60,544 bases of DNA from a virus. The position numbers were made by a program, and so were the translations under genes. The DNA lies in IMG/VR virus record IMGVR_UViG_3300048996_000071, positions 1 through 60,544 of that record, one strand, 5' to 3'. Positions 1,676 to 57,149 of this stretch are shown here, piece by piece; within the stretch, counting starts at the first letter, position 1, and each line of letters begins with the position of its first letter. The notes beneath the pieces were generated by a model that worked only from the letters and a program-made list of their open reading frames with translations, made no database searches and was not told where the DNA came from.

Positions 1676-3277
1676 CTAGCTGTAGTAAGACTTGATGGAT
1701 TCCTCGACCTGGCGACGAGAGTCGGGGTCGAGGTAGTTGAGGACACCGATGGCGAACGCCTGCTGCGGCTGGAAGTGCCGCATGAGGCGGGCGACCTTGA
1801 CCTGGTTAGCGATGCCCCAGGTGACGTTGATGCTGCTGTCGGAGGCCAGGACTCGGATGTCCTTGGCAACCTTCATCAAGTCATCGAGAATCGGCGCCGG
1901 GTCGTAGTTGTCCAGCGTCATGCACCAGCGGGTGATGATGTCTCGCTCGATCGGCTCGGGCGGCATGCCGACGTTGATGTGCAACAGTCGCCGCGCGTCA
2001 GCGTCGCCGATCTCGTTGGTGCCGACGTTGCGTGAATCCCAGGCGGGGTTCGCCGCCAGTGCGATGTAGCAGTCCGGGTGCTGATCGAACTCCTGGCCAT
2101 CGGCCTGGTCGAGTACCAACTGCTTGCTGTTGTCGAACACGGGCCGGGTGAACTGCCAGATCGGTTCCGGTGCCGTGTTCGGCTCGTCAAGGCAGATGAC
2201 GCCCGGCTGTTCGTAAACCTTGGTGAACCGCCCGTACTGGAAGTACGTACCCTTTTCGGGGTGGTACATCATCTTCCCGGCTAGATCATCCAGCTCGGAA
2301 CTGCCGGTGATGGAGTACCTGGTGAACGGCGCACCCATCAGGTAGGCCATGTACCGAAGGGCCTCCGTCTTGCCGACGCCTGGAATGCCCCACAGGATCG
2401 GGGTCATGTTGAGCTTGGTCCAGGCTACGACAATCTGCCAGACGACACCGGCGTAGTCGGTGTACAGCTCCGAGTGCTCCTTGTCGCCGTGCAGGGGCAC
2501 CTGCTTGCCCCGGTTGCCGAAGTGATCGAGGTCGTAGACCGGCAGGAAGCATGGCTCCGCGTACGAGTTGGGGTCGTCGATGCGGCGATATGCCCTGATG
2601 CCACGCTTGCGATCGTCATCAGTCACAGGCGCATCGGACAGCCACTCCTGCGGCTTCACAGTGCGGTGACGAGTCGCCTGCTTTGCGGGGTCGACAACCC
2701 CGAACGACCTGTCGTTCTCCGGGAACAGTCGCAGTCCCTGAAGGTTGGGACGCCTGCTCGGGTTTGTGCTGAACTGCTCGTTGTCCTCGCAACCCTTGGG
2801 GTACTGGTCGAGGCGATCCGCAAGCAGCAACGCACCCTTAGCCAGGCACAGGGGCGCATCGTATCCCGTCTCGGCCCTCACCATCGAGGCCGGGACAAAG
2901 TTGGTGCAGCTAACGCAGTTCGCCGTGCGCGGCCGAGCTGCCGGGTCGTCTACCTCGTTGTTCGGCAACGGCAACGCGATCTCAAACTCAAACGGCGCCG
3001 AGAACGCACTGACGTTGAAGCCCTGGAATGATTTGCCGAACTGACCGCATCCCCTGGCGTTGTGTTCCAGCTGTCGGGCCTGGACCTGATTACTGGCCGC
3101 CGCGTTGAGTAGCGGCTTGCTGTGTACGCCGCAGATGGGAGTACCGATTGTCGAACCCATGTTCGTCCGCTGATCGTCGGCACTGATGGCAGAGGGGCAA
3201 TTGGCACAGCTGCGATCCGATCCCTTGACGGCGAACGGAAGGTTGAGCCTGCCATGTCTTGCGGGAGGTGTGGTCAC
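1676..3277 (-). CDS. MoxR-type AAA+ ATPase with Cys-rich N-terminal region
   Basis: 533 aa starting at GTG 3277 with GGAGGATCG upstream. The AAA+ core has Walker A GIPGVGKT at about 297-304, Walker B ICLDEPN near 361-367, a sensor-like AANPAWDSR near 408-416 and arginines at DADARR. This is the MoxR/CbbQ arrangement. The first 170 residues carry CANC, CVSC and single cysteines that could bind zinc, an unusual addition. MoxR proteins remodel partner proteins, usually with a VWA or metallopeptidase partner, which lies three genes downstream. Transcribed from the TTGACA/TAGGAT promoter at 3298-3326. Confidence 0.85.
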   Translation of the reverse strand: MTTPPARHGRLNLPFAVKGSDRSCANCPSAISADDQRTNMGSTIGTPICGVHSKPLLNAAASNQVQARQLEHNARGCGQFGKSFQGFNVSAFSAPFEFEIALPLPNNEVDDPAARPRTANCVSCTNFVPASMVRAETGYDAPLCLAKGALLLADRLDQYPKGCEDNEQFSTNPSRRPNLQGLRLFPENDRSFGVVDPAKQATRHRTVKPQEWLSDAPVTDDDRKRGIRAYRRIDDPNSYAEPCFLPVYDLDHFGNRGKQVPLHGDKEHSELYTDYAGVVWQIVVAWTKLNMTPILWGIPGVGKTEALRYMAYLMGAPFTRYSITGSSELDDLAGKMMYHPEKGTYFQYGRFTKVYEQPGVICLDEPNTAPEPIWQFTRPVFDNSKQLVLDQADGQEFDQHPDCYIALAANPAWDSRNVGTNEIGDADARRLLHINVGMPPEPIERDIITRWCMTLDNYDPAPILDDLMKVAKDIRVLASDSSINVTWGIANQVKVARLMRHFQPQQAFAIGVLNYLDPDSRRQVEESIKSYYS

Positions 3278-7983: not shown

Positions 7984-9129
7984 TCAGCCTACCAACTTGG
8001 CGGCCTTGCGACCGTCCGCGTTGATCACGCCTTCGATGCCGGGGATCGTGCACTTGGTGCCGTCGTTCGGGTCGTTCTTGTCGGGGAACAGGCGGGCTGA
8101 CACCGCGCCCGGGCTCGGCGACTCGGTGCCGTACTCGTCGGACGGAGTCTTGACGATCTCGTTGATCGAGAGCACGGTACCCACGGGCTTGCCGGCGAAG
8201 GCGCTCAGGATATGGTTCGCGATGTTCTTCCGAGTACCGTCGCCCGCCGCGCGAGGCGACCGGGGCGTTGAGGTGCCACTCGCGGCCTTGCGGGGCTTCG
8301 CGACGCTGGCCCGACCCCGGGCCAGCCGGAAGCCCGCCTTGATGACGTCGGTCGCCTCCGGCGCTTCCTTGTCGAGGGCCTCGCGGACCTCCTCGGTCGC
8401 ATCCTCGGGCAGCGCCGCCACCTTGTCCTGATGGGCAGCGTACGCCCGCGCTGCATCGATCAGCTGCTGGGTGGACTGCTCGTTGAGCTTGTCCGGCCAG
8501 TCAGCGTCGACGCCCTCGGGCACCCGCACCATGTAGGGTGCGATGTACAGGCCGAGCACCTGATCGATGAAGGCCTGCGTCACGTCGACGGTCACCTTCG
8601 GCGCCGCCGGCGCCTTCGCGCCGGTGCTGACCAGCGAGTGCTTCTTGATCATGAACCACGAGCGGGCGTACGGCGAAAGCGCCGGGTCCTCCATGGCTCG
8701 GCCGACCTCGGCGTCGACCCAGGTCTTGACCCTGGTGCGGACGGCACCGGCGGGCAGCTCGTTGAACTTGGCCCGAATGTCGTTCAGCACACCGTCGGGG
8801 AAGAAGCCGGTGCTTTCGTCGCGCACGTCGCTGCAGATCAGGCCGCCGACCCAGTCGCCCGATTCGTTCCTGACGCCGAGGTAGTCGATGAAGTCGGTGG
8901 CGAGCTTGTCGAGACGCGCAGCCTCGGCAGCGGCTTCCGCCTTGGCCTTCGCCTCGGTTTCGGCCGCAGCAGCAGCCTTCTGCTCCTCGGTCAGCTCGAC
9001 CGGCGCCTCGGGCGTGCCCTCGGTGGTCGAGTCGACCGCGTTGGGGTCGGTCGACTCAGCGCTGGCTTCGGTGCTGACAGTCACGGTCTCGGTCTCGCCG
9101 AGCACCGCACCGTCCTGGGAGTCAGACAT
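7984..9129 (-). CDS. Protein with acidic N-terminus and C-terminal wing-like domain, 381 aa
   Basis: Start ATG 9129 follows GGAGGTGCAC. Residues 1-65 are acidic and low-complexity, then an alanine/glutamate coiled region (about 50-80), a central alpha-rich part, a basic linker (about 285-310), and a C-terminal domain (about 312-381). That domain contains NHILSAF, GTVLSINEIV, EYG and PSPGAVSARLF. The same domain ends the proteins at 9398-9853 and 9933-10565. The pattern suggests a winged-helix or HARE-HTH-like DNA-binding fold (inference). Possibly a regulator or nucleoid-type protein. Confidence 0.75.
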   Translation of the reverse strand: MSDSQDGAVLGETETVTVSTEASAESTDPNAVDSTTEGTPEAPVELTEEQKAAAAAETEAKAKAEAAAEAARLDKLATDFIDYLGVRNESGDWVGGLICSDVRDESTGFFPDGVLNDIRAKFNELPAGAVRTRVKTWVDAEVGRAMEDPALSPYARSWFMIKKHSLVSTGAKAPAAPKVTVDVTQAFIDQVLGLYIAPYMVRVPEGVDADWPDKLNEQSTQQLIDAARAYAAHQDKVAALPEDATEEVREALDKEAPEATDVIKAGFRLARGRASVAKPRKAASGTSTPRSPRAAGDGTRKNIANHILSAFAGKPVGTVLSINEIVKTPSDEYGTESPSPGAVSARLFPDKNDPNDGTKCTIPGIEGVINADGRKAAKLVG

Positions 9130-9179
9130 GTGCACCTCCAAGGTGTACGATAGTGTGTGTTCTCCGTGCGTCACCACCT

Positions 9180-9320: not shown

Positions 9321-9398
9321 CTAACCAGCAGAGTTGAATCCGCTGATTGTGACACTGTCGTCGTCCTCGATGTCTATGGCCAGGTATTCCCGGGCCAT
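9321..9398 (-). CDS. Possible acidic micro-protein, 25 aa
   Basis: ATG 9398 overlaps the TGA of the upstream gene as TGATG. The product is MAREYLAIDIEDDD followed by a short polar tail. Support is the coupling arrangement only, with no separate ribosome site. Confidence 0.35.
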   Translation of the reverse strand: MAREYLAIDIEDDDSVTISGFNSAG

Positions 9399-9853
9399 CA
9401 GGCTACCTTGATCGCACCCTTCCTGCCAGCAGGGTACGCATCGCTGATGATCAGCGTACCCTTGACGTTGCCAACCGTGCGCGGCGTGCCGTCGGCGTCG
9501 AAGAGTCGCGCCGCAACGGCACCGGCCCCCGGAGAGTCGTCGCCGTACTCCACGGAACGATGCCTGGCGATCTCGGCGACCGTCAGCTCCGCGTGCTCGG
9601 GCTTGTCGGTAAAGGCACTGATGATGTGCTGGCCGACATCACGTCGCGGGCCGAAATACTTCTCGGCAAGATCAACCTTCGGCGCAGGCTCCTCCTCGTC
9701 GTATGCGCTCTTCCCGGTTTCGATCGTCTCGGCGAATTTGTCAAACGCCTCGGCGATCGACGAGTACACTCTCGCCTCGATGTGATCTTCCGTCAGATTG
9801 TAGTTCATGCGGAACTCTCGCGCAACGGCACGAGCCGCTCTGACTGCGTCCAT
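9398..9853 (-). CDS. Wing-like domain protein, 151 aa
   Basis: ATG 9853 lies 6 nt after a TAGGAT -10, so the mRNA is predicted to be leaderless. Residues 1-75 are helical. Residues 76-151 carry the shared domain (QHIISAFTD, ELTVAEIARHRSVEYG, SPGAGAVAARLF, NVKGTLIISDA). This is one of three paralogues in a row, suggesting a duplicated DNA-binding family. Possible roles include transcription control. Function unproven. Confidence 0.75.
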   Translation of the reverse strand: MDAVRAARAVAREFRMNYNLTEDHIEARVYSSIAEAFDKFAETIETGKSAYDEEEPAPKVDLAEKYFGPRRDVGQHIISAFTDKPEHAELTVAEIARHRSVEYGDDSPGAGAVAARLFDADGTPRTVGNVKGTLIISDAYPAGRKGAIKVA

Positions 9854-9898: not shown

Positions 9899-9938
9899 TG
9901 CCTGGGGCGGGAATCGAACCCGCCCTGCACCATCAGGC
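9899..9938 (-). ncRNA. tRNA-like minihelix T3
   Basis: GCCTG/CAGGC end stem, link ATGGTGCAG, T-arm GCGGG-TTCGATT-CCCGC, discriminator A. Its 5' strand GCCTG contains the TGA stop of the 210-aa gene. Followed by a promoter instead of a TAGACAG hairpin. Confidence 0.7.
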
Positions 9939-10565
9939 TACCCTTTCTCCACCCTTCACGTTGTTGACGTAGCAGGGCACGATGCCCGGCGTGAGCGACT
10001 CACGCTTCCCGTCGTCCGTACGGAACAGCCACGCCATGACGGCACCAGGTGACGGGTGGTTGTTGCCGTACTCCTCCGACGTGTGCGCGACAATCTGGGC
10101 AATCGTCAGCTTCGTGCCGATCGGCAGGTCAGCGAATGCCGAGATGATGTGCCTGGAGACCTGGCGCCGAACGGGCGTGCGCTGTAGGGCAGGATCACCC
10201 TTCGGCCCACAGTCCGGCCTCGGCTGCAACACAGCCTGCTCGTTGCGCCGCTGAATCACCCAGGGCCAATCGCCATCGATCAGGCCCTGCACGATCGCGC
10301 CAGCCAGCACCAAATTCAGCTGATCGAGGTTGGCGCCGCACTCGGCGGCCAGCGTATTGTAGTCGACCTGCATGCGGTCCCGAGCATCTGCATCGGGTGC
10401 GTAGTGAAGCAGCACCTCAAGCAGACTATAGCTCGCCGTACCGGGACCTGTCATGTCCCCTCCGATGATGATTCGCCGTAGTGTCTGGCTGGCCGTTTCG
10501 TGCGGGTACGCCATGCGGCGTATCTGTTCCCGCACTTCGTTGTCTACGCGCACCATTCTACTCAT
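9933..10565 (-). CDS. Wing-like domain protein, 210 aa
   Basis: ATG 10565 overlaps the stop of the upstream gene by ATGA. The N-terminal 40 residues resemble a ribbon-helix-helix segment (MVRVDNEVREQIRRM, then TASQTLRRII), the middle is helical, and the last 75 residues are the shared domain (RHIISAFADLPIG, LTIAQIVAHTSEEYG, PSPGAVMAWLF). The gene ends inside tRNA-like element T3. The RHH plus wing-like architecture suggests a DNA-binding regulator. Target unknown. Confidence 0.75.
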   Translation of the reverse strand: MSRMVRVDNEVREQIRRMAYPHETASQTLRRIIIGGDMTGPGTASYSLLEVLLHYAPDADARDRMQVDYNTLAAECGANLDQLNLVLAGAIVQGLIDGDWPWVIQRRNEQAVLQPRPDCGPKGDPALQRTPVRRQVSRHIISAFADLPIGTKLTIAQIVAHTSEEYGNNHPSPGAVMAWLFRTDDGKRESLTPGIVPCYVNNVKGGERVA

Positions 10566-12280: not shown

Positions 12281-12583
12281 TCAGGTGACGATCTGCTTTT
12301 GTGCGAGCCTGTCCATGAACGGAACGTCATACATGAACGCGCACTCCAACATGGTCTGCGTGAGCCCATCGTACGATGGGCTCTGTGGATCGACCACGCC
12401 CGAGTCGTGAATCAGACTGATGGCGCGATCAACGGCGCCATCACGAATACTGGTCGCCTCGCTACTGGTTTCCAGCAGTACCGTCCTATTGATCAGGACG
12501 TTGTACAGCTGGAAGGTCAACTCTGTGGCCCGATCGTCCATGATCTGGCGAACGTCGTCGACCGTGAAGCTAGACTGTGACAT
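12281..12583 (-). CDS. Helical protein, 100 aa, paralogue of the 10968-11429 product
   Basis: ATG 12583, six nt after TAGGAT, so a leaderless transcript is possible in addition to read-through from upstream. Mostly helical. The second half aligns with the 153-aa paralogue (IRDGAVDRAIS, then TMLECAFMYDVPFM). Function unknown. The duplication within a few kb suggests a shared role. Confidence 0.7.
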   Translation of the reverse strand: MSQSSFTVDDVRQIMDDRATELTFQLYNVLINRTVLLETSSEATSIRDGAVDRAISLIHDSGVVDPQSPSYDGLTQTMLECAFMYDVPFMDRLAQKQIVT

Positions 12584-13957: not shown

Positions 13958-14045
13958 GCGTGGCAGGGTTATTTGAGATCACGCACATTGCCTGGCCAGC
14001 CTGTGCGTAACCTGCGAGGTACCATACTGAGCCGCCCCATGCCAT
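13944..14045 (-). CDS. Possible 33-aa peptide
   Basis: ATG 14045 with AGAGGG upstream at suitable spacing. Sequence MAWGGSVWYLAGYAQAG then CVISNN, and its stop lies inside T10. It fills the gap between T12 and T10. Composition is aromatic and alanine-rich. Weak support. Confidence 0.4.
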   Translation of the reverse strand: MAWGGSVWYLAGYAQAGQAMCVISNNPATRPDW

Positions 14046-14061
14046 ACAGAGGCCCTCTACG

Positions 14062-14127
14062 TAGCATCCCGGAATCGAATCCGGCAGTAGACGAGGAGTG
14101 CCCGCCCACCGGCTAACCTGCAATGCC
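14062..14127 (-). ncRNA. tRNA-like element T12 (larger, degenerate)
   Basis: GGCATTG can pair with GGATGCT (two wobbles, one mismatch), and a CCGG-ATTCGATT-CCGG arm has an 8-nt T-like loop. The 36-nt body is too short for both D and anticodon arms. It lies between the 208-aa gene and the 33-aa frame. May be a decayed tRNA. Confidence 0.45.
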
Positions 14128-14162
14128 GACCACTCACCACCCCCGTCCTTGGGGGTGAGTCC

Positions 14163-14789
14163 CTATTTGCCAGTGTATTCGCGCACCTGGCGAGCGTGTT
14201 CGATGGCGACCCTGGCAGCCCGCATGATCTGCGGACTGAGTTTGCCCGTGAACCCGTACTTGGACTTCACGTAGGCAGCGATCTCGGCCCTGGTCGGGCC
14301 GTTGCCGCTGGCGCCACCGTTGCTGGAGCTGGTGCGGGTGCTGGCAGCGCGCTTGGGTGCAGCGCCGCCCTTCGGCGCACGCTTCACCTTCGACGCGGCG
14401 GCAGCCCTGTTGTCCAGCTTCTCGGCAACAGCGGGCTTCACCACGCGGGCCACCTTTAGCGGACCGTCAGGCGTGTCGATCATGCGCTGGACCAGGCGAT
14501 CACGACCCACGAACCAGACACCTTTGTCAGTGTCATAGCGCGGGTAGTTGTCGACCTCGTCCTGGCTGACCGAGATGCCGGGTCGGGGACTGGCGGGCGT
14601 GTTGTTCGGCGCTGATTCCAACGGCGAACGCACGCCCACGCAGAACCCCGTCATCGGGTTCACCACGTCGACCAGTTTGTTACCACCCAGGTCTCGGCGA
14701 CGCAGCATGGAATGAGGTTCGACCCGATTCTGGACGAACATGCGTTCCGTGCGCAGCTGTTCCTGCGTGATCACAATTGGTTCAGTCAT
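14163..14789 (-). CDS. Basic protein with Lsr2-like-looking tail, 208 aa
   Basis: ATG 14789 is 23 nt after hairpin H8. The N-terminal half is unrecognised (PRYDTDKGVWFVGRDRLV around 95-112). A basic linker of Lys, Ala, Ser, Gly and Asn follows, then a C-terminal 50 residues TRAEIAAYVKSKYGF...SPQIMRAARVAIEHAR. This resembles the small DNA-binding tails of actinobacterial nucleoid proteins in size and placement only. A nucleic-acid-binding role is an inference. Confidence 0.65.
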   Translation of the reverse strand: MTEPIVITQEQLRTERMFVQNRVEPHSMLRRRDLGGNKLVDVVNPMTGFCVGVRSPLESAPNNTPASPRPGISVSQDEVDNYPRYDTDKGVWFVGRDRLVQRMIDTPDGPLKVARVVKPAVAEKLDNRAAAASKVKRAPKGGAAPKRAASTRTSSSNGGASGNGPTRAEIAAYVKSKYGFTGKLSPQIMRAARVAIEHARQVREYTGK

Positions 14790-14812
14790 GACTAATGACC
14801 TTCCTACCATGT

Positions 14813-14831
14813 GCGCAGCTGTCTACTACGC
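14813..14831 (-). promoter_or_regulatory. Hairpin H8 (loop TAGACAG)
   Basis: Identical to H5 (6-bp stem). 5 nt after T11 and 23 nt before ATG 14789. Confidence 0.7.
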
Positions 14832-14836
14832 AACGC

Positions 14837-14876
14837 GCCTGGGTGGGGAATCGAACCCCACCTGCACCTATCAGGC
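14837..14876 (-). ncRNA. tRNA-like minihelix T11
   Basis: GCCTG/CAGGC, link ATAGGTGCAG, T-arm TGGGG-TTCGATT-CCCCA (stem changed on both strands relative to T8). Its 5' strand contains the TGA stop of the 83-aa gene. Confidence 0.7.
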
Positions 14877-15122
14877 TTTGTTATTCGAAGTGATGTCAAC
14901 CGTGATGTCAGCCGTGACCAGTTCTCCCTGCATCGCGTTCAGCTCCAGCTTCACGAAGTGCAGGTACTCGTCATCGGTCATCAGGCCCCTGCGATATTGC
15001 GCCAGGATCTTTTCCAGGTACGCCATGTGCGTCGCACGGATGGCATCACTGATCATGTCGTTCAGCTTCCTGGTACGCCTGGTCATCGGCCGCTCGACAG
15101 CTTCGATGGTGATTTCCGGCAT
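14871..15122 (-). CDS. Small helical protein, 83 aa
   Basis: ATG 15122 follows GTAGGGAGG, 21 nt after hairpin H9. Basic, helical region (RPMTRRTRKLNDMISDAIR) then an acidic YLHFVKLELNAM helix and a short beta-like tail. It is the first gene of the punctuated minus-strand series. Function unknown. Confidence 0.7.
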   Translation of the reverse strand: MPEITIEAVERPMTRRTRKLNDMISDAIRATHMAYLEKILAQYRRGLMTDDEYLHFVKLELNAMQGELVTADITVDITSNNKA

Positions 15123-15143
15123 GACTAATGCCTCCCTACCAGT

Positions 15144-15166
15144 GCGTGCCCCTGTCTAGGACACGC
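15144..15166 (-). promoter_or_regulatory. Hairpin H9 (loop TAGACAG)
   Basis: GCGTGTCC-TAGACAG-GGGCACGC: 8-bp stem with different base pairs from H3 and H7 and the same loop. 21 nt from ATG 15122. Confidence 0.7.
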
Positions 15167-15169
15167 TAG

Positions 15170-15238
15170 CGGCTGTAGGGGGAATTGAACCCCAGTAGGA
15201 CCAGGCGCCCCCATATTGCCAGGCGCCCATCTACAGCC
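15170..15238 (-). ncRNA. tRNA-like element T13
   Basis: Perfect 7-bp acceptor GGCTGTA/TACAGCC, discriminator G, T-arm with TTCAATT loop, and one long hairpin in the body (GGCGCC/GGCGCC). No D-arm or anticodon-sized loop. It is the first element of the series, upstream of the first gene. Confidence 0.65.
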
Positions 15239-15268
15239 AAACCATACACACTACCTATCTTCGGTGCC

Positions 15269-15291
15269 ACCTAGCTAGTCAGGCTAGGTGT
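15269..15291. repeat. Hairpin CACCTAGC-TAGTCAG-GCTAGGTG
   Basis: 8-bp perfect stem with a 7-nt loop TAGTCAG on the plus strand, one base from the TAGACAG loop of the opposite-strand family. Confidence 0.5.
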
Positions 15292-15327
15292 AGAACTGTT
15301 TTGTTTGATCCCCGTCCCGGTGTTGGC

Positions 15328-15392
15328 GTAACGCCTTTCGGCGCCGCCCCCGTTTCGGGGAACGTTACCCGACTCATTTACCCGAGAGTCAG
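15328..15392. repeat. Cluster of nested hairpins
   Basis: GTAACG/CGTTAC can close over CGCC-TTTC-GGCG and CCCCG-TTT-CGGGG (a three-way junction), followed by GACTC...GAGTC. Candidate structured RNA or extruded DNA. The minus frame over it looks non-coding. Confidence 0.4.
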
Positions 15393-15542
15393 GGCCGGAG
15401 GGAGTGTTCGGCGCCCGGTTTGATCGATCCATGGCTCTACCACGGAGGTGCACGATCCCTCGTTTCAGCTAACCGCTGGTCACTATCCGACTAGGGGTGA
15501 ACCTAGGGCCAAAGGTCGCACATGAACCGTGATCCTGTTTCA

Positions 15543-15568
15543 GTCGCTACCGGTAGGCCGGTCGCGAC
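15543..15568. repeat. Hairpin GTCGC-ACCGG/CCGGT-GCGAC
   Basis: Ten pairs interrupted by one T-C mismatch around a TAGG loop. Confidence 0.45.
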
Positions 15569-16150
15569 GTCCCCAGGCGGAACGCGGGCTAGCAATGGCG
15601 CTGTGTTCACGCCGTTGTACGGGTCTGGCAATCGGCACAGGCTGGCCGCTATCACGTCCGATTCACCCAGTTGCCGTTCGGCCGTGCGCTACTAGGTCGG
15701 GAGTGCGCGTTCAGGCATCGGCTAGATGTTTCGCTAGCCACACACCCTACAGGCGGTGCACCTACCGTTCCCGCACGTCCCGTCAGGGTCGTGGGTGAAT
15801 GCGAACCGCGCAGTAATGATTGCGCGACCCGAATTCGGAGGGTCAACCCAGGTGTAACGTGCGCACCCGGGGTCTAGCTGGTGTTGCGCGGCCCGTTGTG
15901 GCGCCGGTAGTACCGTAACACAGGTGGTGCAATGTGCGCCAGCCGGTATCCCGTGTGTGGGATGTGGGTTACAACGTCGGCCCGCCCGGCCCCGGTGTTC
16001 TGTGGCCGTGTCAAAACCATACGTCCAGGGCCTACCGGTGTCCAGCTACATTCCTGTGATGCGGGTCACAGGATATATCTGCACGTCAGTGGGGGTTAGG
16101 GCCAGATGGTGATAGTACGGTCACCGTAGCATGCCATCGACAGCAATCTA

Positions 16151-16179
16151 TGTACACCGTAAACAGTTTACGGCGTACA
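16151..16179. promoter_or_regulatory. 29-bp operator-like palindrome
   Basis: Two 14-bp arms, TGTACACCGTAAAC and GTTTACGGCGTACA, around a single A with one mismatch. Shape and size fit a dimeric repressor site. Confidence 0.6.
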
Positions 16180-16201
16180 GTGATCCCCGTCACTGTTTTT
16201 G
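16177..16201 (+). terminator. Short Rho-independent terminator-like hairpin
   Basis: ACAGTGA-TCCCCG-TCACTGT followed by a T-run on the plus strand. Directly abuts the palindrome at 16151-16179. Confidence 0.5.
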
Positions 16202-16445
16202 CGGGGACGTATCGGTACCTGTCCGGCAAGTCCGTTATGTCGCCCAGGCGCCGTGACCTGCCAAAACGCCGTAGGATGGCGCCTAGCGGCCTAGCGGGAA
16301 GGGGTCGGCATGATTGGGTGTGCCTTATGTGATCATGGCCCTACGGCCGTCCTAGGTGCCTTAAACGGGCATCCTAGGGACGGGATGGCATCGTCCGTTG
16401 GCCCGTCGTGGGGTGACCAGGGACGATGCCGCGCCTAGGCGTACG

Positions 16446-16563
16446 CATGGACAGGGATCGATGGCTCGTCCACATAGGACCGTCAACAGTGGACGTCTAC
16501 TGTGGACGGTCATTTGTGGACGTCCACTGTGGACCGTCCACAGTGGACCCTATGCATGGACAG
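16446..16563. repeat. GTCCAC/GTGGAC cluster (DnaA-box-like)
   Basis: About eight GTCCAC or GTGGAC motifs in both orientations, several as (A/T)GTGGAC or GTCCACA, including the palindrome GTGGACGTCCAC (16516-16527). The motif is the core of the actinobacterial DnaA box TTGTCCACA, but the two flanking bases rarely match. Confidence 0.55.
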
Positions 16564-16758
16564 ACGTCGATATGACCAGCTACCTAGTATCCTAGGATGC
16601 CCAGACAAGTCTCTATACTTGCTACGCAGTATAGGGTATACGGTGTATGGGGTTAGGGCAGGCGGCGCTGGTGTGGGGGTATGGGGGTATGGTGTATCTG
16701 ATTGCAGGCGCATACAACATAGGGCCACAGGGCCACACGTGCTCGTAGTTGATCATGC

Positions 16759-16778
16759 CTTGTTTCACGTGAAACAAG
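16759..16778. other. parS centromere-like site
   Basis: CTTGTTTCACGTGAAACAAG is a perfect 20-bp palindrome containing TGTTTCACGTGAAACA (16761-16776), the bacterial ParB-binding parS consensus. No ParA or ParB gene is in the window, so host ParB is the likely partner. Confidence 0.85.
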
Positions 16779-16818
16779 ATGGCCAACCGTTTGACTGCCG
16801 ACCCGTTTATTTCTGTGT

Positions 16819-16840
16819 GCCGATAGCGTGCGCTATCGGC
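16819..16840. repeat. 22-bp near-perfect palindrome
   Basis: GCCGATAGCG-TG-CGCTATCGGC, two 10-bp arms, 40 bp from parS. No T-run. Confidence 0.55.
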
Positions 16841-17101
16841 CCGGACCAGACTAGGACAAAACGGACAGGCGATATATAGCCATATGGCCTGACCCGGGGG
16901 TGGGAAAATGATCATGGGGGGTGGCGCGCGGGGCTTGGACCAAAGTCGATGCTCATAATTTTTTGAAGATATCATGATCAACTAACAGCGTCTGCACCTT
17001 CAAATCTGTTCCCACCTCCCCGAGCACGACCCCGCTACGCATACACTGAGTGCTCGACCACCAAGAGCCTAGGCCAGTAGTATTCCACTACAGTAGGTTT
17101 C

Positions 17102-17156
17102 CTATATTTCTCCTATGTATCTACTATATTTCTCCTATATTATTTCCATAATATAT
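17102..17156. repeat. AT-rich segment with 15-bp direct repeat
   Basis: CTATATTTCTCCTAT occurs at 17102-17116 and 17124-17138, followed by TATATA runs. This is the most AT-rich DNA in the window and could be an unwinding element. Confidence 0.5.
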
Positions 17157-17608
17157 ATGCAGGTCAAACACTATATGATCATGCTTTTAGGATATACGGA
17201 ACCAACCCCGAACCCCCGGGGATACTGTAGGGAATCGGCCCTGGTGGGCGAGCGCTATGCGTGAGCTGTGCTACTCGTTACTCTACGTTACGTAGCTATA
17301 AGTATGATCGGAAAAATTTTGGTTTCACGGGGCTTAAGAAAAAATTGCCACTTATCCGGTCCGGGGTGTCACGACCCCCCGGCGGTTCCATAATAAAAGA
17401 CTGTCGACGTTTCCGCAGGTCAACCCTAAAGTGTTTACGGAAAACAAAACGGAAAACAGCCCGAGTGACATATTGTTTCCGTTAATAAAATGTCTCCGTA
17501 TATCTACTGGAATTTCTGTGTTTCCATAATTTCCATAATACCTGTACCGATGTCACGCTGCGTATATATGGAAACGGAGATTTGGCGTTTCCGTAATGTT
17601 TCCATAAT
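17143..17608. repeat. TTTCC(A/G)TAAT iterons
   Basis: TTTCCATAAT at 17143, 17521, 17530 and 17599, TTTCCGTAAT at 17588, TTTCCGTTAAT at 17476, and inverted GGAAAAC/GGAAAC forms near 17435-17575. Spacing of 9-11 bp in pairs resembles replication or regulator iterons. Confidence 0.55.
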
Positions 17609-17644
17609 AGCTGTTCTGATGCCGGGGTCCGATAGTGCAAGCGC

Positions 17645-17684
17645 TTGACGCCGGGCAGCGACACGCCTATACTAGGCGTGTCGC
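17645..17684 (+). promoter_or_regulatory. Strong promoter with 27-bp palindromic operator
   Basis: -35 TTGACG (17645-17650), 17-bp spacer, -10 TATACT (17668-17673). A perfect inverted repeat GCGACACGCCTA-TAC-TAGGCGTGTCGC (17658-17684) covers the spacer, -10 and start region. Likely a tightly repressed early or regulatory promoter for the genes at 17710 and 18012. Confidence 0.8.
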
Positions 17685-17709
17685 GCAAAGCACTACCCGA
17701 AGGAACACT

Positions 17710-17994
17710 GTGTCTGCCCCTGTTGCGGAGTCCCCCACCCGCGTCATTCCCACTGTTACCGTTCCGACCGAGATTGCAGTCGTGCTGGCTCGCGACTCGG
17801 CGCGGCGACAGTCGCGCCACCGCATGCAGCGTGCGGCGCGGATCTACTCCGGCAAGACCACCTTGCTTGATAAGGTCTCCACCTACCCCGACAAGGGGTG
17901 GGCGGCGCTGATCCTCATCGGGACCGCCTTCGTCTTCACTGGCGTCGGATTCGCGGTCGCCCTCGTGGTCGAGTCCATCGTCAAGTCTGCCTAG
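17710..17994 (+). CDS. Small membrane protein, 94 aa
   Basis: GTG 17710 follows GAAGGAACACT. The N-terminus is polar (APVAESPTRV), the middle basic (RDSARRQSRHRMQRAAR) and the C-terminus has one strong hydrophobic segment (WAALILIGTAFVFTGVGFAVALVV, about 65-88). Directly under the operator promoter. A regulated membrane peptide such as an exclusion or signalling factor is possible but unproven. Confidence 0.7.
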   Translation: MSAPVAESPTRVIPTVTVPTEIAVVLARDSARRQSRHRMQRAARIYSGKTTLLDKVSTYPDKGWAALILIGTAFVFTGVGFAVALVVESIVKSA

Positions 17995-18011
17995 GGTAGG
18001 AGTAACCCATC

Positions 18012-18278
18012 ATGGCGGAGCCAGCTCCTACCCACAGGGAGCGCCTTAATAGGGCGCGAGCGGCCGGCACGTACGAGGATCTGCGTCCTCAGCTCACCGA
18101 ATTGCTCGCCAACCGGCACCTGTCATTCGCCATGGCGGCGGCTGCGCTCGGCATGGCGACGAAGACTGTCCGTATGGCGGCGGCTGCGCTTCGCATCAGC
18201 AACGTGAACGCGAACCCAGGGAAAGGACTTGTGACCATCATCAGAGCCTATACCGCCGACTGGGATCGCGGCTGGTAG
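18012..18278 (+). CDS. HTH-like DNA-binding protein, 88 aa
   Basis: ATG 18012 with AGGAG nine nt upstream. Residues about 31-62 (LLANRHLSFAMAAAALGMATKTVRMAAAALRI) have the spacing of a helix-turn-helix. It is co-transcribed with the 94-aa gene from the promoter carrying a perfect palindrome, so autoregulation is a natural hypothesis. It could be an immunity or early-gene regulator. Confidence 0.65.
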   Translation: MAEPAPTHRERLNRARAAGTYEDLRPQLTELLANRHLSFAMAAAALGMATKTVRMAAAALRISNVNANPGKGLVTIIRAYTADWDRGW

Positions 18279-18351
18279 GGTGGGTCTAGCTAAGCCGGGA
18301 GAAACGACCCCGCCCTCAATACACACTCGTACCGGCACTCCCTACTAAGAC

Positions 18352-18385
18352 AAGCAGGCCCCCAGGTTTCCCTGGGGGCCTGCTT
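18352..18385. terminator. Bidirectional 15-bp terminator hairpin
   Basis: AAGCAGGCCCCCAGG and its exact complement around TTTC, between convergent genes 18278 and 18398. A short T-containing tail follows on both strands. Confidence 0.8.
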
Positions 18386-18397
18386 CGCTCTGTCGGG

Positions 18398-18817
18398 TCA
18401 GCTAGCTAGTCTGGCCCGGCTTCTGTGTAGCATTCGTGCGACGCTCAACGGAATCAGGTGGTCCCGGCGGAGGGTCCGGACTTCCTTGAGCTTGCGACGC
18501 TTGGGCGGCTGGACATCCAGTGCGTAGTGGTATGTCGCGGCATAGGCGATGAAGGCGTCCAGGAACGCGTCGTACCGGCGGACTGCTGAGATACGTTCCG
18601 TCTGCGCGCCGTTCATTCTGCGCTGGACTTCCCGGCCGTAGTCGCGGTTAGCTTTCCTGCACATCGGCCCATCGCAGCCCAGCGCCTTCGTGGCGCGTCT
18701 GCCGTGCGGGTAGGCCGCGTACTCTTGGTCGAGCAGCTCCTCCCTGCAAGCCAGCAGGAAGGGCCAGTGATCGTCAGACCATTCGCCATCGCCCAGCTCG
18801 GGAACAACCAGCATCAT
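18398..18817 (-). CDS. Unknown protein, 139 aa
   Basis: ATG 18817 after AAAGGCGGC, overlapping the stop of the primase/helicase gene by ATGA. It has CDGPMC (about 48-53) and is strongly basic toward the C-terminus (PPKRRKLKEVRTLRRDHL). Basic charge and coupling to replication genes suggest nucleic-acid binding. Family not recognised. Confidence 0.65.
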   Translation of the reverse strand: MMLVVPELGDGEWSDDHWPFLLACREELLDQEYAAYPHGRRATKALGCDGPMCRKANRDYGREVQRRMNGAQTERISAVRRYDAFLDAFIAYAATYHYALDVQPPKRRKLKEVRTLRRDHLIPLSVARMLHRSRARLAS

Positions 18818-20931
18818 GCCGCCTTTCCTGGCAGCAGCTTGCCGCCTAGCATTGATGGCCTGCCTCGTGTACCGCCGGGCTGCTCTTCCAGGATCAGCAT
18901 CTCGAACTTAACCATGTGGTTGATCGTCTTGAGCATCAGTTCCGATTCGACGCCCTTGATGAGCTTCTTAAGATAGTTCATCGTGATGCCGGACTTCTTG
19001 CGGTCATAGTACCTGACAACGGCGTGGTAGATCTTGTCTTCCAGTTCGTCCGCTTCCGTTGCCATCATCGCAGTCCGCACCACGCCGTACGTCTCCAGCA
19101 GGTACGGATACAGCGCCCTGAGCTTGGTGATGTGCTCCTCGGTGATCAGCTCGGTGCGCTCGTTGATCGCCAGCAGCAGGACCAGCTTCTTCAACAGCAA
19201 GTCGATGCGGTTGAAGATCGCCGTCGACTCCTCTGTCTTGTCTTTCAGCGCGAAGACTTCTTCGTAGAAGCTTTCGAATGCGACTAGAGCCGCAGGCTCA
19301 AAGGTCACGTCCTTGGGAGTCATTGCCCAGTTGTGCACGCCCTTCAGATATTTGACCGGCTCGTCGTAGTTGGTGATGTAGGCATTGATCGCCTTCTGCT
19401 TCTTGCGTGGGCCGGTGACGAACACCCATCTGTTGATAAAGCCAGCCGCGTCATCCTTCTCGCCTACCACGCCGCGGATAGACTTGTTCTGCGTGGTCGT
19501 CATTACCTGGCCGAAAGGCTGCATCGCAATCGCATGACCAGCTCCACGTGATGCCGCCGAAATGCTGTGCGGAGCGTCGTACACCTCCATGAGCTGCGGC
19601 TTGAGCGAGGACCCCGCGCGCGAACCTCGCGAGACAAGACTGGCCATCTCGTCGAACTCAAGGTAAACTCTGATTGGCCAGTCTTTCTGTGGAGCGGCCG
19701 GTGCCGACGGATCTTCAATCTTGTGTACGAACATGTCAACCAGCACCTCGCCCGAACCGGGCGTGCCGCCGAGTTTGGTTCCCATCGGCAGCGGGTCGTT
19801 GTGGTCGAAGGGGAGTGCTCGTGACAGCACCTGCTTCAGGTGTGCCTTCGCCCTGGACTTGCCTGTACCGGACGGCCCAGTTAGGCAGACAAAGATATTC
19901 GGCACAACCTTAGGATTGTCCAGCAGTACCCTGTTGCGACCGACGCCGTAGCCGAGCGCCATGAGGCCAGTCCAGAAGTGGAACTCCTCCGGACAGGTGT
20001 CCTTTGTCGTCTCCGCCATCCAGGCCCACAGGAACGTGTTCGGCGTGACGAGCCTGCGCCAGTTAATGCTGGCGACTACCGGGCCGACCGACTCGGCGTA
20101 GTCCTGATCCTCGACGATGTGCAGCTGAACAACGTTGGACTTGGCCACCGATGGCGGCGGTTCGTCTTCCGTAGCTGCTTCGTCATTTTCCTGGGGGTCG
20201 GGGTCCACCGTGGGTGGGGTGCGCGATAGGAACGTCCCTGCGGACGTGGTGTACTTGCTATACCCCAGTTCACCCGCGATCTTCTCGCGAAGCTCCCTAA
20301 AACCTGCCGGGTCCTTTTTGTAGCCCGGAACCGGATAGCCGTAGTGCCAGGCCGCAAAGTCCCAGTTATCCCCACCCATGGCGCAGCTGCCGCAGTGCCA
20401 CAGCTGCTTGTCCTTGTTCATCCAGGCGCTGGGATCGTTGTCCGGATGAGCTGGATTTGGACAGCGGACCTTGCCCTCGTTGCGATAGGTGGCAGCGTCG
20501 ACGTGCCCTTTGCCAACCCAGCGGTTGTACGCCTCAATGATCCCGATGGCTTTGATCTCGCCGTCGAGTGCCATCTCCTCGGCGGACAGCACGACACTGT
20601 CGCCGTCCAGCACCTGTGGCACATGGACGTTGCCGTCTTCCGGCCTGCCTTCATCCTTCTGCTCGACCGCTGCTGCGGTCGCCGGCACGAGCTGAAGATG
20701 GGCGCTGCGCGCCTTGAGTGCGGCAAGTCTCTCGGCCGCAGTTCCGGTTGGCGGCGGAAGTACTGGTCGCGCAAGTGTGGGCTGCGTTGCGGGTGTGGGC
20801 ACCTCCTGGATTTGCTCTGGAGCTTCAGCCTCGACAACAACGGTGGCCCCGCTTGCCGCTGCTTCTTTTTGGGCCTTGAGTTCGGCCAGCTTCGCCGTGA
20901 AGCTGGTGCCACCCTTGGGGGTAGAGCCCAT
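18814..20931 (-). CDS. Zinc-finger primase/helicase-like replication ATPase, about 705 aa
   Basis: Starts at ATG 20931 (GTG 20940 is possible). A Pro/Ala-rich N-terminus is followed by a CHC2-type zinc ribbon (CPNPAHPDNDPS...WHCGSC, about 157-183) as in DnaG primases, then a P-loop ATPase with Walker A GPSGTGKS (about 352-359) and a long helical C-terminus. The combination is typical of phage primase-helicases that work at the fork. The catalytic primase function may instead come from the adjacent AEP protein. Confidence 0.8.
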   Translation of the reverse strand: MGSTPKGGTSFTAKLAELKAQKEAAASGATVVVEAEAPEQIQEVPTPATQPTLARPVLPPPTGTAAERLAALKARSAHLQLVPATAAAVEQKDEGRPEDGNVHVPQVLDGDSVVLSAEEMALDGEIKAIGIIEAYNRWVGKGHVDAATYRNEGKVRCPNPAHPDNDPSAWMNKDKQLWHCGSCAMGGDNWDFAAWHYGYPVPGYKKDPAGFRELREKIAGELGYSKYTTSAGTFLSRTPPTVDPDPQENDEAATEDEPPPSVAKSNVVQLHIVEDQDYAESVGPVVASINWRRLVTPNTFLWAWMAETTKDTCPEEFHFWTGLMALGYGVGRNRVLLDNPKVVPNIFVCLTGPSGTGKSRAKAHLKQVLSRALPFDHNDPLPMGTKLGGTPGSGEVLVDMFVHKIEDPSAPAAPQKDWPIRVYLEFDEMASLVSRGSRAGSSLKPQLMEVYDAPHSISAASRGAGHAIAMQPFGQVMTTTQNKSIRGVVGEKDDAAGFINRWVFVTGPRKKQKAINAYITNYDEPVKYLKGVHNWAMTPKDVTFEPAALVAFESFYEEVFALKDKTEESTAIFNRIDLLLKKLVLLLAINERTELITEEHITKLRALYPYLLETYGVVRTAMMATEADELEDKIYHAVVRYYDRKKSGITMNYLKKLIKGVESELMLKTINHMVKFEMLILEEQPGGTRGRPSMLGGKLLPGKAA

Positions 20932-20936
20932 ACTGC

Positions 20937-21926
20937 TCACTCTGTCATGACTCCTGCCCATTGATCAGAGACGGTCATGGCCTCGATCGCATTGCGTTCC
21001 CTGAATTCAGTCATGCGGTGCCGGACGTCCAGGAACTGGGGCAGGTAGTGCTCAACCCCGTCGGGCACCTTCATGTTGCGTCCGAGCGGGAGGCGCATCA
21101 GGTTTCCCAGCTGCTTCTCCTTGTCGGAAACCGTGTCCTGCTTGGGGAAGATTTCCACCGACAGCTGCGGCATGTCCTGTACCGGGTCGCCGAACTTGGC
21201 GCGGTGTTTGAAGAAGTTCTTCCCGCGCAGCAGCTCGAACCTGTCCGTCTGCAGAAGCACCATCGTCGCCAGCTCGCGAGCGACTGACGCTTCGGTCGGC
21301 TCATCCAGGATGACGTAGACGTGCATGCCCTTGTGGCCCGAGTACGTCACCAACGTGCGGTAGCCCAGGAGGTTCTGTGACTCCACGGCCAGGATCTGCG
21401 CCATGGTCCGCATCTGGTACACGAGAAACTTCTCGACGTACTCCGGCCTGTGGGGATTCTCCCAGGCGCCGCGAGGATCGCCGTCAACGAAGTGGTCCCA
21501 CGCAGTATTGATGGGATCAATGCTGATCGGCATCGGGTAGTACCGACCCTCAGGCCAGGTCATGTACTTACCTGCCTCTTTCGCCTCCTCCAAGTCAATG
21601 TCGAAGGCGAAGAACTTGACGGTGCCGGTCTGGCTAACCAGGTAGTGGCCCATGCTGGACTCGCCGCGGATGTGCTTCGCCAGGTCCTGGCGGGTGATGC
21701 GCTCGCGTACCGGGTACCAGCTTCCGTCGGGTCGCTGGAATGCCTTCACGTCCGGCCGGGAGATGAACGTCTTGGCAAAGAGATTCGCCAAGGTGTCCTG
21801 CTCCTCGGCGGTGTATTGCCTGCTGTGCAACACGCCTCCAGAGAGAACAAGTGGCCACCCGCTACGGTGGCCGAGTGGATATTCTGATGTGGTCCCGGCG
21901 CCGATAGACCTATTTGCGCAGGTCAT
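20937..21926 (-). CDS. Archaeo-eukaryotic primase (AEP/PrimPol) family protein
   Basis: The open frame is 329 aa. ATG 21926 lies 15 nt after a -10 with no ribosome site, while TTG 21830 has GGAGG, so the start is uncertain. AEP motifs are clear: FFAFDID (about 105-111, metal-binding DxD), YSGHKGMHVYV (about 195-205, the sxH motif) and VEIFPKQ (about 257-263, third carboxylate). Most like LigD-type primases. Likely makes primers for phage replication together with the downstream zinc/ATPase protein. Confidence 0.85.
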   Translation of the reverse strand: MTCANRSIGAGTTSEYPLGHRSGWPLVLSGGVLHSRQYTAEEQDTLANLFAKTFISRPDVKAFQRPDGSWYPVRERITRQDLAKHIRGESSMGHYLVSQTGTVKFFAFDIDLEEAKEAGKYMTWPEGRYYPMPISIDPINTAWDHFVDGDPRGAWENPHRPEYVEKFLVYQMRTMAQILAVESQNLLGYRTLVTYSGHKGMHVYVILDEPTEASVARELATMVLLQTDRFELLRGKNFFKHRAKFGDPVQDMPQLSVEIFPKQDTVSDKEKQLGNLMRLPLGRNMKVPDGVEHYLPQFLDVRHRMTEFRERNAIEAMTVSDQWAGVMTE

Positions 21927-54149: not shown

Positions 54150-54259
54150 TACTCCCGCTCTCCGTTGCAGTACCGGTAGCCCGGCACCTCGTCGTCACTC
54201 TTGTACCAGTCGTGCTCTTCGTGAGCCCCGACCTCTTCGCAATGCTCTACCGGAATCAT
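54149..54259 (-). CDS. Acidic Cys/His micro-protein, 36 aa
   Basis: ATG 54259 with GGAGGAAGTA upstream. HCEEVGAHEEHDWYK and YRYCNG give two Cys and several His, a possible single metal site. Sits between the nuclease gene and the 76-aa gene, both overlaps of one or two bases. Confidence 0.6.
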   Translation of the reverse strand: MIPVEHCEEVGAHEEHDWYKSDDEVPGYRYCNGERE

Positions 54260-55431
54260 TACTTCCTCCTAGTTACCCTGACGTAGGACTCGCCGTACTT
54301 CTTCTTGGTGATACCCCTGACGGCGGCTTGCTGTGAAGGTGTCAGCCTGCCACTCAGTATCAGGTCGTCGACGACGCTTAGCGTGAGCCGCCCCTTGCAC
54401 TCGGCCACGATGGCCGGGCCGAGGATCGCGGACAGCTTATCGAAGTCCATGTCTCGGCGGCCGGACGCCCCGACCTTGACCCTGCCGACCGGAGCGTCCC
54501 ACTCGATCTGATCCGTCTCCTCGCCGTGCATCAGGAGTCGCTTCTCAACCTCGTTCTTTAGCTGATTGAGACCCTTGAGTTTGTCGGCGATGTCAGCCAT
54601 CACCTCAGCCAGGTCGTCAATGTCCAGGCCCATGACGCCGCCCGCGTCGATGTTCGACCTGAGCTTCAAGCACGAAGGCTTGCGGACACAGTATGTGCAC
54701 TCCGGATTAAGCTGCTCGGAGGCGTCATCCTCGTCGGTGTCCATGATGTCCTGGGCGATCTGCTTGAGGGTCTGCCAGGTGTTCTTAGCATCCTCGCGAG
54801 TGAAGACTACGCCGATCTTCTCATGGCGGAGGAAGTCGAAGTCCACCCAGATGCGTGTGGCGTTCGGGTACAGGATCAGCGCGGCTAGCGCGTACACCTT
54901 CGCCTGGATATTCTCTCTGAGATCCTCGGCTCGCAGTGGCTGCCGCTGCGACTTGTAGTCCACCACCCGGATCTCGCCGCCACCAAGGTCGTCGAACCTG
55001 TCCATGATGTAATTGAACCGGATCTTGATGATCTCGTTGGCGACACGATCCAGCACCGGCACCTCGAAGAAGTTCTTCTCTTCGAGGCTGATGATCTTGC
55101 AGCCGATGATATCTTCGAGCATGTAGGGGCGATTGAACCAGCCGATGAGGATCGCGCGTCCCTCGCGGTACCACTCGGTGTTGATGTCCGGACTGATCAA
55201 CTGCTTGTAGTACTTGTCGTACAGTTCGAGGAGTACGTCCTCTTCCCACATGTACGTCTTGTGGATCTTCACGCCGCCGATGAAGTCCTCAAGGGCGGCG
55301 TGAAGCGTGGTGCCCAGCAGGGCGGCATCGCCTTGGAAGTTGGCGCCACGATGGATGTTCTCAGCCACGAACCGCGACGGACACGCCATCCACGTCTTGA
55401 TCGACGAGGCGCTCAGTGTCTTAGGAAGCAC
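54259..55431 (-). CDS. Cas4/RecB-like PD-(D/E)XK nuclease with Fe-S cysteines, 390 aa
   Basis: GTG 55431 has AAGGAG at seven nt and overlaps the WhiB stop by a few bases. The longer frame to 55617 would overlap WhiB more. Motifs: TTLHAALEDF (H44), D144 in YIMDRFDDLG, VVDYKSQ (D158, K160), and Cys residues C17, C245, C248, C254 like the Cas4/AddB iron-sulfur staple. Probably a 5'-3' exonuclease in DNA replication or recombination. Confidence 0.85.
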   Translation of the reverse strand: MLPKTLSASSIKTWMACPSRFVAENIHRGANFQGDAALLGTTLHAALEDFIGGVKIHKTYMWEEDVLLELYDKYYKQLISPDINTEWYREGRAILIGWFNRPYMLEDIIGCKIISLEEKNFFEVPVLDRVANEIIKIRFNYIMDRFDDLGGGEIRVVDYKSQRQPLRAEDLRENIQAKVYALAALILYPNATRIWVDFDFLRHEKIGVVFTREDAKNTWQTLKQIAQDIMDTDEDDASEQLNPECTYCVRKPSCLKLRSNIDAGGVMGLDIDDLAEVMADIADKLKGLNQLKNEVEKRLLMHGEETDQIEWDAPVGRVKVGASGRRDMDFDKLSAILGPAIVAECKGRLTLSVVDDLILSGRLTPSQQAAVRGITKKKYGESYVRVTRRK

Positions 55432-55675
55432 TCTTGGTCTCCTTGCCAGCCGCCCGAGTCCGACGCTTTCCGCCCCAGACGCCGTATCGCTCATCCCGCC
55501 GAATTGCACTCGTGTCGCACTCCCGGCGAACCGGGCAGCCGAAGCACCATCCAGCCACGGCGTCGTCGCCTGTCTCCGACTTCCCAGGATAGAAGATGTC
55601 CTGGTAACTCTCGACACCGACTATGTCGCCGGCGGGACCTCGCCAGTAGTCTCGACAGGCAGCACGACCGCGCCA
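55421..55675 (-). CDS. WhiB-like Fe-S regulator, start codon not found
   Basis: The frame reads WRGRAACRD, IFYPG, WCFGCPVRREC and RYGVWGGK. These are the four Fe-S cysteines and the G[VI]W turn of WhiB proteins, ending in a basic tail. No ATG, GTG or TTG lies in this frame from the upstream stop (55874) to the first cysteine. The coordinates cover the recognisable domain only. It is in the -1 frame of the 167-aa gene, so a frameshift fusion, non-standard start or sequence error is possible. WhiB-type phage proteins alter host transcription. Confidence 0.75.
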   Translation of the reverse strand, partial: WRGRAACRDYWRGPAGDIVGVESYQDIFYPGKSETGDDAVAGWCFGCPVRRECDTSAIRRDERYGVWGGKRRTRAAGKETKSAS

Positions 55676-56152: not shown

Positions 56153-56905
56153 CTAGAACAGGTTTGTTGAGGTTTCGACCAGGCGACGATCGGCCTTCGC
56201 CCACCGCACCGGGTCTAACTCGATGCCAACTGCTGGTCGGCCGAGGTTCCTGGCGGCGATGACCGTAGATGCCGACCCGCCAAAGGGATCGACGATGAAG
56301 TCGCCACGATTGGTGCTCGGCTTGATGAGCATCTCGAGCAGGGCCGGCGGCTTCTCGTGCGGGTGGATGAGCTTGTCGGGGCGAATCTGTGGGACGTGAA
56401 GCACGGCGTTGCGCCGCTTGTCCGACAGTGGGCGGTTACCCTTCTTGAGGTAGAGGATGAACTCGATCCCCTGTCCCCACGAAGCTAGGTTACCCTGGCC
56501 TGGACCATCCTTTTCCCAAACCAAGATAGCAGACCGACGGTACCCGTGTCTAGTCAAACTATCGGCTACTTTTAGCCACTCATCCAAGACCTGATGGGCG
56601 GTGAAGATGTACAGGTCGGCCTCGTCCACGGTGGCCGGAAGCAGGCTGTCCATCACATCCTGAAAGACTGCAATGGCTTCTTCAGGAGTGCTGTCGTTCA
56701 GGATCTTCGTGGCATTCGCCTTGCCCTCTGGCGTGGTAGACGAATTGCTCTGGTTGTCGACACCGAAGGGCGGGTCAGTGATTACACAGGCAACCCGGCG
56801 CTTCGCCTGAAACCGCTTGCACAGTTCAATACTGTCACCCTGCCAGAGCTGGTGGGCCTCCGCGTTCATACCGGGAACTGTCGGGGCTGTCGCTGCTGCT
56901 GTCAA
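56153..56905 (-). CDS. Beta-class DNA methyltransferase (N6-A or N4-C), up to 250 aa
   Basis: Start uncertain: TTG 56905 has GGCGAG upstream, and ATG 56869 is 12 codons later. Motif IV TDPPF (about 43-47) precedes motif I FIVDPFGGSAST (about 203-214), the beta-class order for N6-adenine or N4-cytosine enzymes. Recognition target unknown. Could protect phage DNA against restriction. Overlaps the preceding 104-aa gene. Confidence 0.85.
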   Translation of the reverse strand: MTAAATAPTVPGMNAEAHQLWQGDSIELCKRFQAKRRVACVITDPPFGVDNQSNSSTTPEGKANATKILNDSTPEEAIAVFQDVMDSLLPATVDEADLYIFTAHQVLDEWLKVADSLTRHGYRRSAILVWEKDGPGQGNLASWGQGIEFILYLKKGNRPLSDKRRNAVLHVPQIRPDKLIHPHEKPPALLEMLIKPSTNRGDFIVDPFGGSASTVIAARNLGRPAVGIELDPVRWAKADRRLVETSTNLF

Positions 56906-57149
56906 CGATCTCGCCGTCCATTACTCGTTGTTCCGGGGATAGATAAAGCAATGCGGCCAGTAATGCGCCGACCGGGTTTGCGTCCTGATCGATCAGGACG
57001 GCCTGCGTGTAGTGGCCGAGGGCCGGGCCACGATCGACGTTGACCTTCATGTGATACTCGACTGACTTCCCATAGCGCCGCATGGGCGAGAGGTCAACAG
57101 TGCCGACCTGCTCGCCCATGCCGTCACGTATGGTGACGTGAAGTTCCAT
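56835..57149 (-). CDS. Unknown protein, 104 aa
   Basis: ATG 57149 overlaps the RusA-like stop. N-terminal beta pattern (MELHVTIRDGMGEQVGTVDL), a histidine-containing middle (HMKVNVDRGPALGHYTQAVL) and a Ser-rich C-terminus. The long 3' overlap with the methyltransferase depends on which start that gene uses. Confidence 0.65.
   Translation of the reverse strand: MELHVTIRDGMGEQVGTVDLSPMRRYGKSVEYHMKVNVDRGPALGHYTQAVLIDQDANPVGALLAALLYLSPEQRVMDGEIVDSSSDSPDSSRYERGGPPALAG

Follow-up and report, generated by a model that had tools for sequence, protein, structure and literature searches.

Partition sites (parS) and the ParB proteins that bind them form one of the most conserved chromosome-segregation systems of bacteria. 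The locus described here raises the question of why such a site should stand, letter for letter, in a phage genome. The window (the whole stretch of DNA analysed, 60,544 nt) is a linear viral sequence, 60.5 kb in length, and at positions 16759-16778 it contains CTTGTTTCACGTGAAACAAG, a 20-bp perfect palindrome that we predict to be an orphan parS; like the repeat features described below, it is not assigned to a strand. The inner 16 bp (16761-16776), TGTTTCACGTGAAACA, match the universal parS consensus at 16 of 16 positions, and two extra bases pair on each side. The ParB-binding consensus is thus present exactly, as the original prediction had stated, and the 16-mer is a predicted loading site for host ParB. 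The consensus itself comes from bacterial chromosomal ParABS systems (Livny et al., 2007, as cited in a passage of PMC10197239). Sites of the chromosomal type are 16-bp palindromes with few mismatches, and the one found here has none.

The number of exact parS 16-mers expected in a 60.5-kb window is 4.1e-6 from base composition and 8.1e-6 under a first-order Markov model. The site is the only copy in the window, with no further match at up to 3 mismatches and the next best 16-mers agreeing at 12 of 16 positions. It had also been argued that a 20-bp perfect palindrome is very unlikely by chance. That argument is weaker than it was taken to be, as the window holds three perfect palindromes of at least 20 bp (12362-12383, 16759-16778 and 56981-57000) against about 0.09 expected, and such a palindrome is therefore unremarkable per se. 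The improbable feature is the identity with parS, not the palindrome as such. The 22-bp palindrome at 12362-12383 lies within a predicted gene, and the 20-bp one at 56981-57000 lies between predicted genes.

To which phages is this virus related, and where in its genome does the site lie? Nucleotide searches gave no relatives among cultured phages, either for 14000-20000 in distant mode or for 30000-54000 in near mode, and relatives were identified by protein searches instead. Its primase, helicase, terminase and portal genes mark it as distantly related to phages of Gordonia, Rhodococcus and Tsukamurella; the helicase is 32% identical to its counterpart in Rhodococcus phage ReqiDocB7, and the portal protein is about 50% identical, over the aligned part only, to those of Gordonia cluster CS phages. 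The relatives have genomes of 72-83 kb, and the record may thus be a fragment. A search of IMG/VR for related loci with the helicase confirmed none.

The site is located in a stretch of about 2.5 kb that is poor in genes and rich in repeats (15123-17634), as delineated by coding scores, repeats and GC profile, and all ORFs that lie wholly inside it have negative codon-usage scores. The nearest confident genes are 1.6-2 kb away. To the left, an 83-aa gene called from its coding score (14871-15122, minus strand), with no match in Pfam, reads away from the site. To the right, the 3′-end of a helicase/primase-like gene (18814-20961, minus strand), which is a positional anchor common to the relatives, lies 2.04 kb from parS, and a gene for an archaeo-eukaryotic-type DNA primase (20937-21926, minus strand) follows; both assignments come from Pfam and protein searches. 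About 210 bp to the left of parS, four related repeats of 28 nt that contain GTCCAC(T/A)GTGGAC palindromes are clustered (16467-16548), and repeat analysis suggests them as possible iterons. On the other side, an AT-rich segment with TTCCATAATA repeats (17101-17610), with a GC content of 29% at 17101-17200, is a possible DNA unwinding element from its repeats and GC profile. The iteron-like GTCCACTGTGGAC repeats and the AT-rich TTCCATAATA segment make up a candidate replication origin, and we regard the whole stretch as a putative origin, terminal or regulatory region. ReqiDocB7 has a comparable annotated gap of 2.5 kb downstream of its helicase gene with many direct repeats, and the gaps that correspond to that of the window in ReqiDocB7 and in Gordonia phage Orchid are likewise rich in repeats.

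If the phage has a parS, does it also encode the proteins to use it? The original prediction described a genome without visible parAB, and this holds for the domains searched: neither ParB_N (PF02195) nor a ParA-type domain (PF13614) had a match in the record. The same two domains had no match in Woes, Shelley, Lahirium, Orchid, ReqiDocB7, Katyusha and Monty, among which Woes, Shelley and Orchid are complete genomes that carry the site. A complete phage parABS system is ruled out as far as these domains go in a record that is possibly incomplete. The prediction had further offered a plasmid-like prophage, which we do not favor, as tyrosine integrase (PF00589) and resolvase (PF00239) had no match in the window, Woes or Shelley, and cluster CS phages, including Woes, are reported to be without temperate features (PMC5559632), though Orchid does carry a tyrosine integrase.

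We searched 23 records of relatives for the 14-mer core of parS with up to 2 mismatches. Exact copies were found in Shelley and Woes (Woesvirus, cluster CS3) and in Orchid (cluster CX), two in each; Camerico has a single match with 2 mismatches, and the other 19 records, among them ReqiDocB7, GTE7, Katyusha, Monty and Jumbo, have none. Each of these six copies lies close to the right end of its genome. The inner copy lies 2.3 kb from that end in Woes and 1.2 kb in Orchid, in the direction of the helicase region, which is also the case in the window, and the genome ends are confirmed by terminal repeats of 184 bp in Woes and 249 bp in Orchid, which have also been reported earlier (PMC5559632). 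The site is thus conserved, exactly and in a comparable region, in two distant lineages. The lack of conservation among relatives that would have spoken against the original prediction is therefore not what we see. There are differences as well, since Woes, Shelley and Orchid have two copies each, mostly inside longer hairpins after stop codons, and the window has one; the second copy of Orchid lies, as in the window, within a large noncoding gap. Judged from these sequences, the nearly all-or-none pattern would be more in keeping with selection on a protein-binding site than with neutral decay. Lahirium is assigned to the species of Woes and has neither copy: relative to Woes, one repeat unit and its gene are absent, and another hairpin, which is not a parS, is found at the junction. 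As Lahirium grows, isolation on the laboratory host does not require the site, and parS is probably optional under laboratory propagation.

Beyond this group, three palindromic 18-mers built on parS, with flanks other than that of the window, were found in 178 cultured phage records at 428 places (both strands counted), and a further 18-mer, which has the flank of the window site itself, in 117 of the cultured phage records, which are redundant, so that independent gains are fewer than the record count. When the search behind the 178 records was repeated with two control palindromes matched in composition, it gave zero matches. The phages of the 178 records infect Microbacterium, Gordonia, Listeria, Arthrobacter, Bacillus, Lactobacillus and other genera. 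Among actinomycetes, the likely host group, the parS 16-mer is present in 39 of 98 sampled genomes in 1-13 copies each and a control pattern in none of the 98, and this makes the motif effectively specific to parS; the count is for the actinomycetes as one group. Across the whole IMG/VR collection parS had at least 120 matches, the first control palindrome 1 and the second at least 120, mainly from one abundant coding lineage, and we discarded these counts as evidence of enrichment. The second control, TGTTCTACGTAGAACA, is common in viral contigs, mainly in one coding lineage among the matches listed; the matches listed also include about 30 other contexts, some apparently intergenic, and it may be a real operator.

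ParB_N scored over the cut-off in 5 of 46 viral contigs of at least 18 kb with the parS core, with some of the IMG/VR contigs perhaps derived from prophages, plasmids or chromosomes, and in one of four parS-bearing cultured phages checked, Microbacterium phage KaiHaiDragon. The parS of KaiHaiDragon (3001-3018) lies inside an annotated gene for a DNA-binding protein, and its ParB_N protein is encoded elsewhere (49.0 kb).

The best-supported reading of these sequence comparisons is that the site is an orphan parS that would recruit host ParB to the phage genome. That host ParB binds here is, on the same grounds, highly probable; whether positioning or segregation is the function under selection is in our view an even question. 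The phage apparently encodes neither ParA nor ParB, and we suggest that host ParB would bind its orphan parS, form a closed clamp in a CTP-dependent manner and from there spread over the flanking phage DNA beside the putative origin or terminal region. Host ParA and partners, or SMC loaded by ParB, could then hold and position the phage genome or genomes during infection, and the effect would be greatest in carrier cells that are slow, stalled or dividing. The benefit could lie in positioning, carrier-state inheritance, condensation or titration. Of the host-ParB interpretation given in the original prediction, the recruitment part is well supported, at the level of sequence, by the conservation and by the excess over controls in cultured phages, and the plasmid-like prophage part is not favored. 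Several observations speak against our reading as a whole: the window record has one copy only, most relatives lack the site, as does Lahirium within the species of Woes, both copies of Woes and Shelley and one of Orchid are in hairpins after stop codons, and the site of the window is not next to any gene.

Known systems offer partial parallels. Bacterial chromosomal ParABS systems have the identical 16-bp site, likewise in a putative origin region, but the phage has a single copy and no parA or parB domain was found in its record. The virulent Bacillus phage phi29 is described as using host Spo0J (ParB) for entrapment of its genome in the spore (passage in PMC9437464, citing Meijer et al., 2005). 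Phage B103, which is phi29-like, has an exact parS and no ParB_N match; the parallel is a virulent phage that exploits host ParB. However, the site of B103 is inside the endolysin gene, whereas that of the window is in a noncoding gap. The extrachromosomal mycobacteriophages RedRock and Miko show that an actinobacteriophage can carry a centromere, as proposed for the window, but they encode their own ParA and ParB, and the parS loci of RedRock are arrays of 8-bp direct repeats instead of the chromosomal palindrome found here (PMC7157519). We found no paper in the open-licence literature on host-type orphan parS sites in actinobacteriophages. As regards spore entrapment, Gordonia, Rhodococcus and Tsukamurella, the hosts of the relatives of the window phage, do not to our knowledge form endospores, and a benefit other than entrapment, such as carrier-state inheritance, would therefore be needed.

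Could the site instead act as a decoy? Replicating phage genomes could titrate host ParB, and SMC with it, off the chromosome and in this way disturb segregation or free replication resources. The sequence evidence for ParB recruitment serves this explanation equally, and phage copies would outnumber the exact chromosomal sites of actinomycete genomes. On the other hand, a decoy would be expected to need more than one or two sites in each genome, and Lahirium manages without any. Some other viruses do carry more: the bajarodino viruses (PQ006135.1, PQ006099.1 and PQ006178.1), with genomes of about 6 kb, have 8-11 reported parS places each, which corresponds to about 4-5 sites as the strands are counted twice. 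We consider a decoy rather unlikely.

A different explanation is that the site is part of an RNA hairpin, a terminator or a regulatory stem, and that the parS sequence within it is a coincidence or stems from a captured host terminator that contained a parS. Both copies of Woes and Shelley and one of Orchid stand directly after stop codons, each within a perfect palindrome of 30-36 bp; the outer arms vary between copies but pair fully, and this suggests an RNA role for these copies. A hairpin is probably wanted at the Woes/Lahirium junction independently of parS, as a different one takes its place in Lahirium. It is also in line with this explanation that palindromes of at least 24 bp surround about 16% of the sampled bacterial parS 16-mers, against 3.5% of the viral ones. 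However, the inner 16 bp are invariant while the arms vary, which is the reverse of what a terminator needs. The palindromes of the window (20 bp) and of the second Orchid copy (16 bp) are short and lie in a gap away from a stop codon. The window site does not qualify as an intrinsic terminator, which would have a G+C-rich stem immediately behind a gene and then a T run: its stem has 40% GC, neither strand has a T run, and the nearest confident genes are 1.6-2 kb off. We regard a hairpin part as unlikely. The possibility that long hairpins are a trait of phage sites only was rejected on the same frequencies, as bacterial sites are more often found in them. Two bacterial parS sites lie within perfect palindromes of 54 and 52 bp.

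The site could also be a neutral relic, a fragment of host parS gained by recombination and unused. Its patchy occurrence among relatives, with absence even within one species, would be expected of a relic. A neutral site should, however, decay to 1-3 mismatches, and we see exact cores of 14-16 bp, and almost no degenerate copies, in three lineages between which shared proteins mostly have about 25-50% identity, besides the strong excess of parS over the matched palindromes among cultured phages; a relic seems improbable to us. Most improbable is an operator for a phage regulator, or a site for a divergent phage ParB missed by the profiles or encoded outside a record that may be incomplete: some parS-bearing phages do encode ParB_N (KaiHaiDragon and the five viral contigs), but neither a ParB_N nor a ParA-type match is present in Woes, Shelley or Orchid, whose genomes are complete.

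Recruitment of host ParB could reach beyond this phage. We put forward tentatively, as somewhat less than an even proposition, that many phages of actinobacteria and Firmicutes, virulent ones included, have independently gained an orphan parS for loading of host ParB, in the present group at a fixed position close to the origin or to an end of the genome. If so, borrowing the chromosome-segregation machinery of the host would be a general viral strategy, for instance to anchor the incoming genome or to have it inherited by daughter cells in a stalled infection. Recurrent carriage of parS without ParB would make this machinery a common phage dependency, and in the open-licence literature we found such a dependency reported only for phi29 in sporulating Bacillus. 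Woes, with two sites, and Lahirium, with none, are of one species and infect the same laboratory strain, and this makes a direct test possible.

Two further features of the window deserve mention. Three adjacent minus-strand genes (7984-9177, 9398-9853 and 9933-10565) have a common domain that matches one single region of Woes gp88 and of ReqiDocB7 gp81, and they form a locally expanded paralogous family; a Pfam search with two of the three gave no match. Finally, a gene for a DNA N6/N4 methylase (56153-56905, minus strand) lies near a PD-(D/E)XK nuclease gene (54259-55617) and a RusA-like gene (57149-57778).
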